A stretch of DNA of 64,000 bases, from positions 317,056 to 381,055 of the forward strand of contig JAFYXV010000002.1 in NCBI GenBank assembly GCA_017557885.1, given 5' to 3'. The notes under the pieces were generated by a model that was not told the DNA's origin, searched no databases, and saw only the letters and a program-made list of their open reading frames with translations. Numbering within the stretch: position 1 is the stretch's first letter; every line of letters starts with the position of its first letter. Origin of the DNA: a bacterium (GTDB lineage Bacteria > Auribacterota > UBA3054). The position numbers and the translations under genes were made by a program. This document shows, piece after piece, positions 38,977-44,399 of this stretch.

Positions 38977-41649
38977 TTAAGGAACTAGCACCACACGTAT
39001 GCCGTAGATGAAGTTAGCGAATCCGGGGTAGCCTTGGCTCTTGAAGGCGTCGCGGCGATAAGCGGAGCGGCAGCAGTAGGCATAATCTTGAAAACTCCCG
39101 CCCCGGAGAACCCGGTATTCTCCAGTTTCTCCGCCTTTCGGATCGATGGCGTCTCCCTCATATGAACTAAACCAATCCAGACACCACTCGTACACGTTGC
39201 CATGCATGTCGTAGAGTCCCCAGGCGTTGGGAAGATAAGAGCCAACAGTGGTGTGCTGTTTATATCCGCCTTTGCCGTCAAAATAATCGCGGCTATAACG
39301 GCCTACTTCCGACATTTCTTGACACTCAAACCTATTTGAAAGATCTTTGCCGCTGTTCAAAGCCGTGGCCGTGCCCGCCCTGCAGGCATACTCCCATTGG
39401 GCTTCCGTAGGAAGGTCGAAAATGTTTCCGGCTTTTTTTCTCAGCTGTCCTATGAAACTCCGCTCGTCAACTCCGTTGTTTTTGGGCCAGGCGGAGCCTT
39501 TATTTGCTCCCCTGAGCATCTCATAGGAAAAGTGTTCCGCCGGCCTCATGTCGCCTTTGTAATAGGAAAGATCTTCACCCATAATATTTTCACACTGCCT
39601 CTGCGTCACCTCGAAAACACCGATGTAATAGGCTTTGGTAAGCGTTACCTGATGCTGCGTTTCAGCGTTTTCCCTGCCCAATTCATCTTCTGGGCTGCCC
39701 ATTGTGAAGGTTCCCGGCTCGATCCTCCTGAGCCATAATTCCTCCGTGCGGCATTTGTCGTCTGTCGTATCCGGTCCTTCCGACGAGACGCGCATCTCGT
39801 TGCTCGTTGTGTCCAAAACAAGATAATTGGCCTGTTCCGTCACATCCTCATATTCGACTCTCAATTCCACTTCATCCATCACGTTGGTGTAAGCATCACC
39901 CGGGATCCAGGTCAGCTTATGCATGCCGATTCCCTCCACTATTCCGCTGGCACCGTCATATTCAAGCTTGCCCATCTCCTCCAGCAGTTTTTCCTCACCG
40001 TTTTTCAACTTTCCATAAAACTTGGTTTGGAAAATTGGCAGAGTGTTTTCCGTCCCGGATTCAATTTCATATTCTAACTCCTTTTGAATTCGAATGTCCG
40101 GCCCGGGAAGCGCATTTTGAATTAAAGCCGCACGGAAACCGCCGGCTCTGCTGACGTCCTTGTGGCCGCCGCCGAAGCGGCTAGCGGAGCGGCAATTGTC
40201 AGCATTGTTGTACCAGTATCCGCCCCGGATAGCATGGTATGCTCTCCAACTCGGGCCATGCGGATCCGTCACAGGATCCTTGCCAAGATCTATCTGAAAC
40301 CAGTCCAGACACCACTCGTACACATTGCCGTGCATATCGTAGATCCCCCAGGCGTTGGGAAGATAGGAACCGACTGCGGCATGATAGTTATTGGATCCGC
40401 CGTTGTAGCAATAGCGCCCAACTTCCGCCATTTCTTCGCACTCCCGCCTATCCGAAAGATCTTTGCCGCTGTTCAAAGCCGTGGTCGTGCCTGCCCTGCA
40501 GGCGTATTCCCACTGCGCTTCCGTGGGAAGATCAAAAAGGAAACCTATCTTAGCGCGAAGTTTGCCGAAAAAGGAATCATCATCCACTTCGTAACTGTCC
40601 GGCCAGTCTGCGCCCTTGTCACCTCCCCGGAGCATGTCATAGGAAACGAGTTCCACCGGCATCAAGTCGCCTTTGAATCCGGATGGGTTTTTACCATAAA
40701 TAAGCTCGAATTGCTTTTGCGTCACTTCAAACACACCGATGTAATAGGCTTTGGTAAGCGTAACTTCGTGCTGCGTTTCAGAGCCAGTTCCGCTTGATCT
40801 GCCTAATTCATTTGTAGGGCTGCCCATGGTGAAGGTTCCTGGCTCGATCTTTCGCAAAACAAGTTTCGTAGTCTTGTACTCTTCCGTCCAGCCGCCTTCC
40901 GGCGCGTCTTCTAGATAACTAACGGCATTACCTTCGGCCAAAAGATCGATGACCATATACAATTTGTTTGTGACCAAAAAAGGATCTTCATACAAGTTGT
41001 CGCTTACGACAGCGGGAGAAATAGCATCGGGAGAAAATTTATACGCTATGTTGGCCTTGCCTTTGGAATTGACGCTGAATTTCACCTGCAAGTCTTGCTC
41101 TTTGGCAGAATATTTGAAGTTTTCGCCTTTCTTTTCAGGAATGAAAGCATAGGCGCCTACGCTTTCTGAACCGTTTTCATTGCAAAGGGTGTCAAATAGC
41201 GTAACCTTTTTTGTTTCAAACTCGGCAATATCTTCCGTTCTCAAAGTTCCGGAAGATCTCAAATCGGCTTTCGTTGGCTTAATTGTTTCATCGCCTACCG
41301 TAAAAGCAAAATTCTCGGTGACGTCCTTTTCCGTCCAGGAAAACTTTCCGTTTTTCAACTTTGCGGAAATCTTCTGATTGCCCGTCTTTTTCCCATAGCC
41401 TTTCTCGTTTTTATCCAGCAGCGTCGGCACACACAGATAATTGGCGAGATCGTTTCGAACGGAGAAGTTCGCTCCTTCAGATAGCGCCTTCATAGCCGCA
41501 TCGCTTAACGTCCCGCTTAATTTAAGCGTAGTAGAGCCTTTCACATAACCGCAGACATTTGCGACTTCCTGCGTAACGACGGTGCCGGCTGACAACGCCC
41601 CTACCGTAAGGAAAAGCATGGCAACAGTCAGGAGAACAGCACTTCTCAT
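38977..41649 (-). CDS. Secreted protein with two SUMF1 (FGE-like) domains
   Basis: 890 residues from ATG 41649 (signal MRSAVLLTVAMLFLTVGALSAG). The N-terminal 230 residues are a beta-rich domain of unknown family. Two SUMF1 domains follow (about 262-510 and 640-888), each with PGTFTMGSP, FEVTQ(K/R)Q, FDLPTEAQWEYACRAGT, YDMHGNVYEWCLDW and RGG(Y/S). They are separated by a linker of about 120 residues. The Cys pair that makes formylglycine in true FGEs (CxxxxC just after RGGS) is absent from both; only the downstream CRSA cysteine remains. So they are probably binding or structural C-type-lectin-like modules. It follows the DUF3791 gene by 27 bases. Confidence 0.82.
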   Translation of the reverse strand: MRSAVLLTVAMLFLTVGALSAGTVVTQEVANVCGYVKGSTTLKLSGTLSDAAMKALSEGANFSVRNDLANYLCVPTLLDKNEKGYGKKTGNQKISAKLKNGKFSWTEKDVTENFAFTVGDETIKPTKADLRSSGTLRTEDIAEFETKKVTLFDTLCNENGSESVGAYAFIPEKKGENFKYSAKEQDLQVKFSVNSKGKANIAYKFSPDAISPAVVSDNLYEDPFLVTNKLYMVIDLLAEGNAVSYLEDAPEGGWTEEYKTTKLVLRKIEPGTFTMGSPTNELGRSSGTGSETQHEVTLTKAYYIGVFEVTQKQFELIYGKNPSGFKGDLMPVELVSYDMLRGGDKGADWPDSYEVDDDSFFGKLRAKIGFLFDLPTEAQWEYACRAGTTTALNSGKDLSDRRECEEMAEVGRYCYNGGSNNYHAAVGSYLPNAWGIYDMHGNVYEWCLDWFQIDLGKDPVTDPHGPSWRAYHAIRGGYWYNNADNCRSASRFGGGHKDVSRAGGFRAALIQNALPGPDIRIQKELEYEIESGTENTLPIFQTKFYGKLKNGEEKLLEEMGKLEYDGASGIVEGIGMHKLTWIPGDAYTNVMDEVELRVEYEDVTEQANYLVLDTTSNEMRVSSEGPDTTDDKCRTEELWLRRIEPGTFTMGSPEDELGRENAETQHQVTLTKAYYIGVFEVTQRQCENIMGEDLSYYKGDMRPAEHFSYEMLRGANKGSAWPKNNGVDERSFIGQLRKKAGNIFDLPTEAQWEYACRAGTATALNSGKDLSNRFECQEMSEVGRYSRDYFDGKGGYKQHTTVGSYLPNAWGLYDMHGNVYEWCLDWFSSYEGDAIDPKGGETGEYRVLRGGSFQDYAYCCRSAYRRDAFKSQGYPGFANFIYGIRVVLVP

Positions 41650-41676
41650 GGATTTTCCCCGATAAATCAATGATTA

Positions 41677-41889
41677 TTAAAGGTTGCGGCTGTATTCTTC
41701 AACAAGATCTTCCGCAAGGTATTCGTCGCTCATGCAGTGAAGATCGGAGGCGCCTTTGTGAAGAAGCATGCTTTCTTTGGAATGATAAAAGAAATCAAGG
41801 GCGGTGGGAAGAGAGATATTCGCTTTCCGGGCGAAAAGCGCGATAACTCTGGCGAACTTTCTCTGCAGTAAGATCGGATGGGCTAACAT
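41677..41889 (-). CDS. DUF3791 domain-containing small protein (first copy)
   Basis: 70 residues, mostly helical: RKFARVIALFARKANISLPTALDFFYHSK then LLHKGASDLHCMSDEYLAEDLVEEY. This is the DUF3791 pattern of a helical N-terminus (F..IE.yA...g.S..e....f...g) and a C-terminal YLAEDL(V/I).EY motif. Function unknown. Its first 7 bases overlap the end of the DUF3990 gene, and a second DUF3791 gene lies on the other side of DUF3990. As a small protein coupled to a putative ADP-ribosyltransferase it could be an antitoxin or a specificity partner (inference). Confidence 0.75.
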   Translation of the reverse strand: MLAHPILLQRKFARVIALFARKANISLPTALDFFYHSKESMLLHKGASDLHCMSDEYLAEDLVEEYSRNL

Positions 41890-42359
41890 ATGGTCTCGCT
41901 CCCGATATAATGCAGATATTTTTCTATGACTTCCTGATGGCGAATAGCCAGCTGCATGTTAGGCTGCTGAAGTTTCAAACGCTCTATCGCCACGCTTCTG
42001 TCTATCAATCCGTCAAGGTAGAGTTCGACAGTGTCAAAGACCTTATCGTTTGCAATGCCGCCCATGACAATGTCAAAATCAGAGGTGTCCTGCACTTTGC
42101 GGCATTTCACAACAAAGTCCAGCCATTCGTCGGAGTAAGCATCAAAGGCCAAAACCTTGCATTTTTGAAACACTTCGTCATCCAGTTCATATTTTGATAT
42201 GACGGCGTGTTCGTCAGTCTGAACAAACCGTTCACACCATTTCTTGGCCTGCTCTATGAGAGAAGTCGTGTAGAAACCCGGCCCAAAATCCACATTCCTA
42301 CGGGAATGAAGGATGTCCGGCTTGGGCACAGCAATATTTGAGGCATGATAAAGGATCAT
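41883..42359 (-). CDS. DUF3990 protein, putative ADP-ribosyltransferase
   Basis: 158 residues. It begins MILYHASNIAVPKPDI with His5, then DFGPGFYTTS with Tyr30. This order (YHxS, then GxGFYxT, then a helix EQAKKW) resembles the NAD-binding core of ADP-ribosyltransferases of the His-Tyr-Glu type. A later FDIVMGGIANDKVFDTVELY segment is characteristic of DUF3990 and could supply the third catalytic residue. The rest is mixed alpha/beta. The catalytic role is an inference from motif order; no substrate is known. Both neighbours are DUF3791 genes, overlapping by 4 and 7 bases, so the three are strictly coupled. Confidence 0.75.
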   Translation of the reverse strand: MILYHASNIAVPKPDILHSRRNVDFGPGFYTTSLIEQAKKWCERFVQTDEHAVISKYELDDEVFQKCKVLAFDAYSDEWLDFVVKCRKVQDTSDFDIVMGGIANDKVFDTVELYLDGLIDRSVAIERLKLQQPNMQLAIRHQEVIEKYLHYIGSETIC

Positions 42360-42607
42360 TTCAGAACGCCTCTTTTTTTCATCAGTTCAAGGAGGTCCGT
42401 CATGATGTATTCCTTATCTTGCGTGTGCAAAACATCATAGCAGGGAACTATGTAGGAATACAACAGGTCGCTGTCAACGGTCAGCATAGCGTAAACCCGG
42501 GAGGGATCCAACCCAAGCTTTATGGCGAGATTTTCAATGCAAAAAACCGCAAACGCCAACGCGTCTTGAGACAACTCAAGATTATCTTTGACAGATCCGT
42601 TCTGCAT
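42356..42607 (-). CDS. DUF3791 domain-containing small protein (second copy)
   Basis: 83 residues from ATG 42607 (MQNGSVKDNLELSQDALAFAVFCIENLAIKLG). AAGGA lies 8 bases before it, which selects this start over the long in-frame extension that merely reads through the neighbouring SUMF1 gene in another frame. The core FCIENLAIKLGLDPSRVYAM and the end SYIVPCYDVLHTQDKEYIMTDLLELM match DUF3791. It differs strongly from the other DUF3791 copy, so the pair is not a recent duplication. The stop overlaps the DUF3990 start by 4 bases, and the SUMF1 gene ends 13 bases upstream. Confidence 0.75.
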   Translation of the reverse strand: MQNGSVKDNLELSQDALAFAVFCIENLAIKLGLDPSRVYAMLTVDSDLLYSYIVPCYDVLHTQDKEYIMTDLLELMKKRGVLK

Positions 42608-42620
42608 GAGATTTTCCTTT

Positions 42621-44324
42621 TTACTGAGCGAGGAAGACTCGGAAGCCGTAGCCGCTGTAGTCGCCGAAATTGGGATTGGCGTAGTCGCGGGCTGCGGAGC
42701 GGCAGTCGGCAGCGGGGCTGTAGCAGCCTCCCCCTCGGAGAGCGCGGTAGGTGGCGGTTTCCGGGCCGGCGGGATCAGTTGCCGAATCGGTGCCCAGGTT
42801 CGCCTGGTACCAGTCGAGACACCATTCCCAGACGTTGCCGTGCATATCGAAAAGGCCCCAGTTGTTGGGAATGAACAAGCCGACGGGCGCATGGCCGGAA
42901 AGAACTTCGCCAGTTTCAGGGTTGCCTCCGCCGTTGTACCAGAAACGGCCGAGAGTCGCCAGATCGGGGTCGTTCTTCGTATCAGTAAGATCCATCCCGT
43001 AGTTCAAAGCCGTGGTTTCCCCTGCCCTGCAGGCGAATTCCCACATGGCTTCCGTGGGAAGATCGAATTTATATCTCGTTTTGGCTCTCAGGATGCCGAA
43101 GAAGGAATCCTCGTCAACTTTGTTGTCGCTGGGCCAGTTGGCGCCTTTTTCTGCGCCGCGGAGCATATTGTAAGAGACTTTCTCCACCGGGTACTTGTCA
43201 GACTGTAAGAAAGAGGGATTCGCTCCGGTGACCAGTTCAAATTGTTTCTGGGTGACTTCAAAAACGCCGGCGTAGAAAGCTTTGGTCAAAACCACTTCGT
43301 GCTGGACTTCGTTATCATCTCTGCCCAGTTCAGAATCGGGGCTGCCGATATTGAAAGTTCCGGAGTCGATCTTCTTAAGAACCATCTTAGTGGTCTTGTA
43401 CTCTTCTGACCAGCCGCCCTGGGGAACGGAATCGAGGGTGCTGACGGGGAAGCTCTGGGCGTCCGGGCCGCCGGAAAGGTCTATGACAAGGTATTCGCCG
43501 TTAATGGGAGGCACTGCCTGCTCCGTTGCTGTCACTTTCACCTTGAAGTTTTCGCTGTACTGGGAATAGAAGGTCTCGTCCGGCACCCAGAAGGTTTTGT
43601 GAGCTCCGGCACCAGAGACTGTTCCGTCGAAGCCCTCCTCCAGGAGCGTGCCTTTTTCCGCCAGGTCGAAGGTGGTTTCACCGTTGTCGAAAGAGCCGCT
43701 GAAAGATATGTCGAAGACCGGACCTTCGTTTTCGGAAGCGAGGGAGTAGTTGATGATGACCAGCCTGTCGAAGGGCCACATCTGAAGAACGCTGACGTCG
43801 CTGACGATGCCGTCGGCTTTGGCGCTGAAAGCAGCCAGCGAAAGAACGGCTAAGATCGCCATGAGGCTCTTAGCGCGTTTCCTGAGGAAAAGCGCGCCAA
43901 GAAAAGTCAGCGCCAAAAAGGCCATAGGCTCCGGCAGGATCGTGACCGCGCGGGTGTACACTTTCTCCTCGGAATCGCTCGTTATCGTCTCCGTAAGAAG
44001 ATACGTGTCGTCGGTCGGGAAATCTTTATAATCTTCGCCGGTGTAATCCCAGGCGACCGTTCCTTCCAGGGCGGTCCCGGACTGATCGGCAAAAACGCTG
44101 GCCGTAACGTTCGGATCTTCCTTGTCCTGCGCGATGATCGTAACAGACTTGGGTTCTCCCTTCGCCAGAGCGCTGCTGTAAGACATCTGATCTGTGGGCA
44201 GAAGCAGGATGGGGTCTTCCGTGATGGGATCGCCGTTGAAACGGGCTCCTTCGGACCAGGCTTCGTCGCAGAAAGCGGAAACGCTTAAAAGCGCCGCCAT
44301 GCTGAATAGAATAACTTTTTTCAT
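42621..44324 (-). CDS. PEP-CTERM-like module fused to a secreted SUMF1 protein
   Basis: 567 residues from ATG 44324 (GGAG ribosome-binding site at a good distance). Residues 1-19 are a signal peptide. Residues 20-125 are a small exported domain. ILPEPMAFLALTFLGALFLRKR (130-150) is a complete PEP-CTERM signal. It is followed at once by a second signal-peptide-like stretch, Met155-AILAVLSLAAFSAKADG. Then come a beta domain (about 175-300) and a SUMF1 domain (about 310-567) with SGTFNIGSP, FEVTQKQFELV, FDLPTEAMWEFACRAGE, DMHGNVWEWCLDW and a final GYGFRVFLAQ. It reads like two genes joined in frame. An internal start at Met155 (43862) is possible, with weak AAGAG upstream. Confidence 0.78.
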   Translation of the reverse strand: MKKVILFSMAALLSVSAFCDEAWSEGARFNGDPITEDPILLLPTDQMSYSSALAKGEPKSVTIIAQDKEDPNVTASVFADQSGTALEGTVAWDYTGEDYKDFPTDDTYLLTETITSDSEEKVYTRAVTILPEPMAFLALTFLGALFLRKRAKSLMAILAVLSLAAFSAKADGIVSDVSVLQMWPFDRLVIINYSLASENEGPVFDISFSGSFDNGETTFDLAEKGTLLEEGFDGTVSGAGAHKTFWVPDETFYSQYSENFKVKVTATEQAVPPINGEYLVIDLSGGPDAQSFPVSTLDSVPQGGWSEEYKTTKMVLKKIDSGTFNIGSPDSELGRDDNEVQHEVVLTKAFYAGVFEVTQKQFELVTGANPSFLQSDKYPVEKVSYNMLRGAEKGANWPSDNKVDEDSFFGILRAKTRYKFDLPTEAMWEFACRAGETTALNYGMDLTDTKNDPDLATLGRFWYNGGGNPETGEVLSGHAPVGLFIPNNWGLFDMHGNVWEWCLDWYQANLGTDSATDPAGPETATYRALRGGGCYSPAADCRSAARDYANPNFGDYSGYGFRVFLAQ

Positions 44325-44399
44325 ATTTGATCTCCGGAGAAACTGAGATTGATTACTCATCTATATAATTTTATCAAAATCAACAATCTTTTTTTCGCT

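Follow-up and report, generated by a model that had tools for sequence, protein, structure and literature searches.

The closest worked example among three-part ADP-ribosyltransferase (ART) systems is CmdTAC, an mRNA ART defense system whose toxin is set free by loss of the third component (PMC11618068). PrrC, which is silenced by an adjoining type I enzyme, provides a precedent for the nesting of a toxin in a restriction operon (PMC2610378). Among the protein families considered here, DUF3990 is included in the ART clan of Pfam (PMC7955679) and has been reported as the C-terminal domain of a Serratia Rhs effector (PMC4524185). A candidate defense system of the PADLOC catalogue, PDC-M13, was counted 3324 times in rumen genomes in a 2026 survey, which places it among the more frequent candidate systems of that environment (PMC13356809). 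No experimental or functional study of DUF3990/DUF3791 systems or of PDC-M13 was found in the searchable literature.

Organization of the DUF3791-DUF3990-DUF3791 locus

Here, we analyzed a three-gene locus in a bacterial DNA stretch of 64,000 nucleotides (hereafter the window), in whose coordinates the features are given. All three genes are located on the minus strand. The first gene, A (42356..42607), encodes a DUF3791 protein of 83 aa (PF12668, E=4.8e-19; PADLOC PDC-M13A, PDLC04434, E=2.7e-31), the second, B (41883..42359), a DUF3990 protein of 158 aa that is a predicted ART-fold toxin (PF13151, E=1e-47; PDC-M13B, PDLC04438, E=1.8e-61), and the third, C (41677..41889), a second DUF3791 protein of 70 aa (PDC-M13C, PDLC04442, E=8.5e-31), whose match to PF12668 (E=5e-6) is just above the Pfam threshold (26.9 bits, cut-off 25). 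The stop of A and the start of B share a 4-bp ATGA overlap (42356..42359, minus strand) that is kept in most relatives, and the end of B overlaps the start of C by 7 bp (41883..41889, minus strand), or by 4 bp in most relatives. A previous reading of this DNA from its letters and open reading frames (the sequence-only reading) had described three small genes overlapping by 4 and 7 bases, which is exactly what was observed, and both motifs that it had noted in the 158-residue central protein were found in B (YHAS at residues 4-7 and GFYTT at residues 28-32). The PADLOC models PDC-M13A, B and C match the adjacent and co-directional A, B and C; the trio is already catalogued as PDC-M13, a genomic candidate for a defense system.

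The listed open reading frame of A (178 aa) extends back into an upstream FGE-sulfatase gene. It is likely that A starts at the ATG at 42607, which is located 13 nt past the stop codon of the FGE-sulfatase gene and is preceded by AAGGA. This gap (42608..42620, minus strand), including the ribosome-binding-like AAGGA at 42615-42619, is identical in three sister species.

Trios in the order A-B-C and with ATGA-type overlaps are also found in Lachnospiraceae, Treponema, a Planctomycetaceae MAG and phage contigs, and this recurrence puts the association of the three genes far beyond chance. Pairwise distances of A, B and C were also correlated across 56 trios (rho 0.78-0.87, permutation p 0.001). 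Comparison of B with a sister species revealed an identity of 0.85 at third codon positions vs 0.96 at first and second positions; third positions thus vary more, in line with purifying selection on the protein.

Predicted fold and candidate active site of the DUF3990 protein

The sequence-only reading had proposed that B resembles ADP-ribosyltransferases and that structure prediction would be an appropriate check. An AlphaFold2 model of B built from 19 sequences had a pLDDT of 92.7 and a pTM of 0.85, and its top Foldseek matches in the PDB were ART-fold proteins, in agreement with that proposal. The best match was the RES toxin of the P. putida Xre-RES system (9r35, E=1.6e-4, probability 1.00), followed by ParT (6d0i) and MbcT (6fkg), and then by PARP10, other ART toxins and tankyrase. 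TM-scores to the RES toxins were only ~0.5, and the likeness between B and RES proteins is therefore at the level of the fold. Pfam scanning of B identified DUF3990 and a weak AAA_assoc match only, with no RES domain, and searches of PDB sequences with B or the B alignment gave no convincing relative.

In a diverse alignment of 103 B sequences, three residues were nearly invariant, namely H5 (99/102), Y30 (103/103) and Q136 (102/102), and D24, R87 and G100 were likewise conserved. In the AlphaFold2 model, H5 is located on the first strand (residues 2-7), Y30 on the second (29-32) and Q136 on the penultimate one (134-139). This strand order is the one expected for an H-Y-[EDQ] triad, which makes H5-Y30-Q136 a candidate triad. 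Thus, B is predicted from the model to be an ART-fold protein of the H-Y-[EDQ] group.

The two DUF3791 proteins as a homologous pair

The matches of A and C were limited to DUF3791/PDC-M13 and unrelated weak ones, and included neither a macrodomain nor SecB. HHalign detected homology between the profiles of A and C (P=5e-7). In 250 Lachnospiraceae genomes, the 30 best B loci had both an A-type and a C-type gene, ordered as either A-B-C or B-C-A; one of these 30 top-scoring loci carries a stop in B. Moreover, the two partners were observed as single proteins in both orders. A ~150-aa protein of PDC-M10 is an A-C fusion, whose first half is similar to A (P=2e-5) and whose second half is similar to C (P=1e-5) and is also matched by the PADLOC M13C models, and a C-A fusion is present at locus L220 and on the Bacteroides fragilis plasmid pBF9343. 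Single-chain fusions with the effector were found as well: at L255 and L261, DUF3791 (E=3e-10 and 6e-11) is fused N-terminally to DUF3990 (E=8e-48 and 1e-46), and the DUF3791 half is of the A type. AlphaFold2 prediction of the natural A-C tandem (PDC-M10B, three sequences) reached a pLDDT of only 36 and gave no usable model.

Because A and C are homologous, co-occur and are fused in both orders, these sequence relationships would be better explained by a paired inhibitor of B than by an inhibitor plus a delivery factor. On this point the sequence-only reading, which had suggested an inhibitor plus a specificity or delivery factor, is not supported by our data, although its description of one effector and two different DUF3791 partners as a coupled unit agrees with both the trio and its relatives.

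To what extent DUF3990 occurs without DUF3791 was surveyed in 40 DUF3990 genes hand-picked down the ranking (23 short-form and 17 long-form). Approximately 20 of the 23 short-form genes had both DUF3791 types adjacent or fused, whereas none of the 17 long-form genes (217-343 aa) had DUF3791. The pairing implied by the sequence-only reading therefore holds for the short form and fails for the long form.

Nine long forms were inspected and had an overlapping partner of ~213 aa, with a C-terminal HTH in the two partners scanned. An overlapping HTH partner is a standard antitoxin layout, and long-form DUF3990 looks like a separate, PDC-M42-like branch of toxin-antitoxin-like systems. A relationship between the ~213-aa partner and DUF3791 was considered and not supported (HHalign P 0.004-0.05). 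At L263-L276, a DUF3990 protein of 217-238 aa overlaps or abuts this partner, and the HTH in the two scanned is of the XRE type. Other architectures were also noticed. In sister-genome DUF3990 proteins (L029:690-1562 and L033:1333-2205), an apparent N-terminal XRE-type HTH, as read from the sequence, is fused to the ART domain, and at L009:2634-3536 a Fic domain is joined to the N-terminal part of DUF3990, immediately upstream of a complete PDC-M13 trio.

One-sided decay of the DUF3990 gene

Approximately 29 good C loci were collected from the 250 Lachnospiraceae genomes, 16 with an intact B and 13 with a broken or missing B; A was open too in 8 of the latter 13. The reverse situation, an intact B with a lost A or C, was not observed among the 30 top B loci. 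As the length of B is close to the combined length of A and C, this ratio of 8 to 0 is unlikely to result from target size alone (sign test ~0.008, with loci that are not fully independent). In several cases B had in-frame deletions that keep both overlaps (L131, ~residues 7-122; L134, 58-128; L135, 51-90; L140, 2-52), and at L142 B is absent and A and C overlap directly. Some of the B breaks could be assembly errors, which is unlikely for the in-frame ones. Decay restricted to B is the trace to be expected of a poison guarded by a protective pair, and is not proof of toxicity; the surviving A and C beside a dead B could also mean that they have a separate role. Together with the layout and the fusions, it fits both the toxin/antitoxin-like character that the sequence-only reading had ascribed to the locus and the arrangement of a type II toxin-antitoxin system, in which B would be the poison and its small neighbors would neutralize it by protein contact.

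Mobility and distribution

In the window, the neighbors of the trio are FGE-sulfatase and glycosyltransferase genes (Pfam), by which a defense-island setting was ruled out for this copy. The trio is present at the same site (41646..42624) in the sister genomes G004, G006 and G007. In G003, the same two flanking FGE-sulfatase genes are side by side with no trio between them (L240), and neither the trio nor the second FGE gene is present in G001, G002 and G005. Between G004 and G006, identity was 99.7% for the trio, 83% for the glycosyltransferase genes and 68% for the upstream FGE gene, and the trio was therefore recently exchanged between species. The FGE-sulfatase-domain genes that flank the trio (window 38977-44360) diverge fast between sister species (68% vs 83% for their neighbors). 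The idea that they are targets of a diversity-generating retroelement was rejected as improbable for the window genome, in which no reverse transcriptase was found.

Among 44 genomes of the window's phylum, DUF3990 is confined to this genus. The window genome itself contains two more complete DUF3990 triads (G000:C10:43421-43873 and G000:C11:31631-32092; L169 and L170), one in the order A-B-C and one in the order B-C-A. In Lachnospiraceae, 142 of the 250 species sampled had DUF3990, often in several copies. Plasmid copies were found in Bacteroides, Phocaeicola and Moraxella. On the conjugative plasmid pBF9343 (L227:5502-6615), DUF3990 and its C-A partner are located directly before a small gene that is followed by a zeta toxin gene.

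Scanning of viral contigs with single sequences gave no match, and the phage copies were found with an alignment query. At L189 and L192, the trio is within a cluster of phage structural (head-tail) genes. A third trio-bearing phage contig (L194) has an apparent retroelement reverse transcriptase and variable C-type-lectin-like proteins.

Restriction and BREX contexts in relatives

In several relatives the trio is associated with restriction or BREX genes. The clearest case is L016 (3032-7646; also L158, both views being one assembly), in which the trio is in frame inside the BREX gene pglX, between brxC and pglZ/brxL. The first PglX part corresponds to residues 1-850 of intact PglX and is continuous into A, and C is continuous into the second PglX part, aligned from residue 870. 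On a plasmid of Moraxella osloensis (L226:4454-7602), the order is hsdM-B-C-A-hsdS, joined by 4-bp overlaps. In addition, hsdS overlaps B at L166, and the trio is located between pglX and pglZ at L129. Most other loci have ordinary neighbors, and among the 82 flanking genes of relatives, defense genes were only scattered.

The same joint of pglX (850/870) is interrupted at L296, L297 and L298 by other, unrelated inserts, among them spare specificity segments as well as a 382-aa gene common to L297 and L298. The joint resembles a hot spot for recombination or insertion and, given these other inserts, may be just a tolerant insertion site. One reading is that the trio acts as a portable fuse and, when wired into other proteins, as a damage sensor, which would insert into a host gene and leave A and C on separate halves, so that the A-C pair would rejoin the split enzyme and hold the ART silent, and damage to BREX PglX or HsdM/HsdS would free the toxin. 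We consider this quite improbable, although it is compatible with one clear case (L016) and with two operon cases. A general role of the trio as a splitter of host genes was rejected, since most trios are free-standing.

Proposed mechanism and alternative explanations

We think it reasonably likely that the trio encodes a mobile ART toxin neutralized by the A and C DUF3791 pair, probably serving abortive anti-phage defense. Free B, as a putative toxin with NAD+ chemistry, would consume NAD+ or ADP-ribosylate a host component, and growth would stop. A and C together would bind and silence B, and the overlapping start and stop codons may couple translation of the three genes and keep their products in step. 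Loss or sequestration of the pair, presumably upon phage infection, would release B and lead to abortive defense. A defense role is likely on the ground that the trio is a catalogued candidate.

One alternative is that the trio is a selfish addiction module that has no defense role and persists by post-segregational killing and recombination. The scattered chromosomal contexts, the plasmid copies, the gain, loss and exchange within the genus and the frequent death of B would all suit such a module. On the other hand, PADLOC lists the trio as a defense candidate, several copies are in restriction or BREX operons, and those inside phage genomes fit a conflict with other phages; we therefore regard a purely selfish module as somewhat unlikely. 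A different division of labor, in which one DUF3791 protein is the antitoxin and infection is read out by the other as a chaperone or sensor, is suggested by CmdTAC, a three-gene ART system with an H-Y-[EDQ] toxin that is freed when the third component is lost (PMC11618068); the trio is likewise tripartite, with A and C diverged from one another. However, both are homologous DUF3791 proteins, neither of which matches SecB, and their fusion in either order suits a paired inhibitor better, which makes a toxin-antitoxin-chaperone arrangement unlikely.

The restriction and BREX contexts raise the further possibility that the trio senses the state of these enzymes and that B fires when they are inhibited, as PrrC does with EcoprrI (PMC2610378). 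The insertion inside pglX, the copy between pglX and pglZ, the hsdM-B-C-A-hsdS operon and the overlap with hsdS are in line with such a guard, but most copies, including that of the window, are not beside these systems, and the unrelated inserts at the pglX joint suggest a tolerant insertion point; a guard function is rather unlikely. Finally, the trio might be a housekeeping or regulatory ADP-ribosylation module with A and C as substrates or scaffold, given that B is a predicted toxin. The patchy and horizontally exchanged distribution, the one-sided loss of B, the toxins among its nearest structures and the presence of DUF3990 in an Rhs effector all argue against a non-toxin function, which appears very improbable. 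A mobile ART toxin held by a DUF3791 pair remains our preferred explanation. If it is true, these loci would represent a class of ART toxins with a two-paralogue antitoxin, some members of which are embedded in restriction or BREX operons. The comparison yields a proposed division of labor and the candidate catalytic residues H5, Y30 and Q136; it also provides natural fusions suited to structural studies and naturally occurring variants with a dead toxin.

Comparison with known systems

The trio and PDC-M13 have the same three families, order and sizes. PDC-M13 is a genomic candidate, to whose parts the present analysis assigns proposed roles, and PDC-M10 is built on this logic too, its A and C being fused. 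The closest solved folds to B belong to the RES-Xre systems (MbcTA, ParST and P. putida Xre-RES), in which a small ART toxin is also beside its inhibitor. However, the trio has neither a RES domain match nor an Xre/DUF2384 antitoxin, and has a DUF3791 pair and a candidate H-Y-Q triad instead. In DarTG an ART toxin is likewise combined with a cognate antitoxin, but DarG is a macrodomain hydrolase, whereas both A and C are small and helical, and no macrodomain was found in them. Similar to the Moraxella relative, PrrC is a toxin whose gene lies within a type I restriction operon (EcoprrI); unlike B, it is an ABC-ATPase anticodon nuclease, and only a minority of DUF3990 trios, not including the window copy, are linked to restriction-modification. 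CmdTAC shares with the trio both the three genes and an ART effector of the H-Y-[EDQ] group, and differs from it in its partners, as CmdC is SecB-like and CmdA is of a different make-up, whereas both partners in the trio are DUF3791 proteins.
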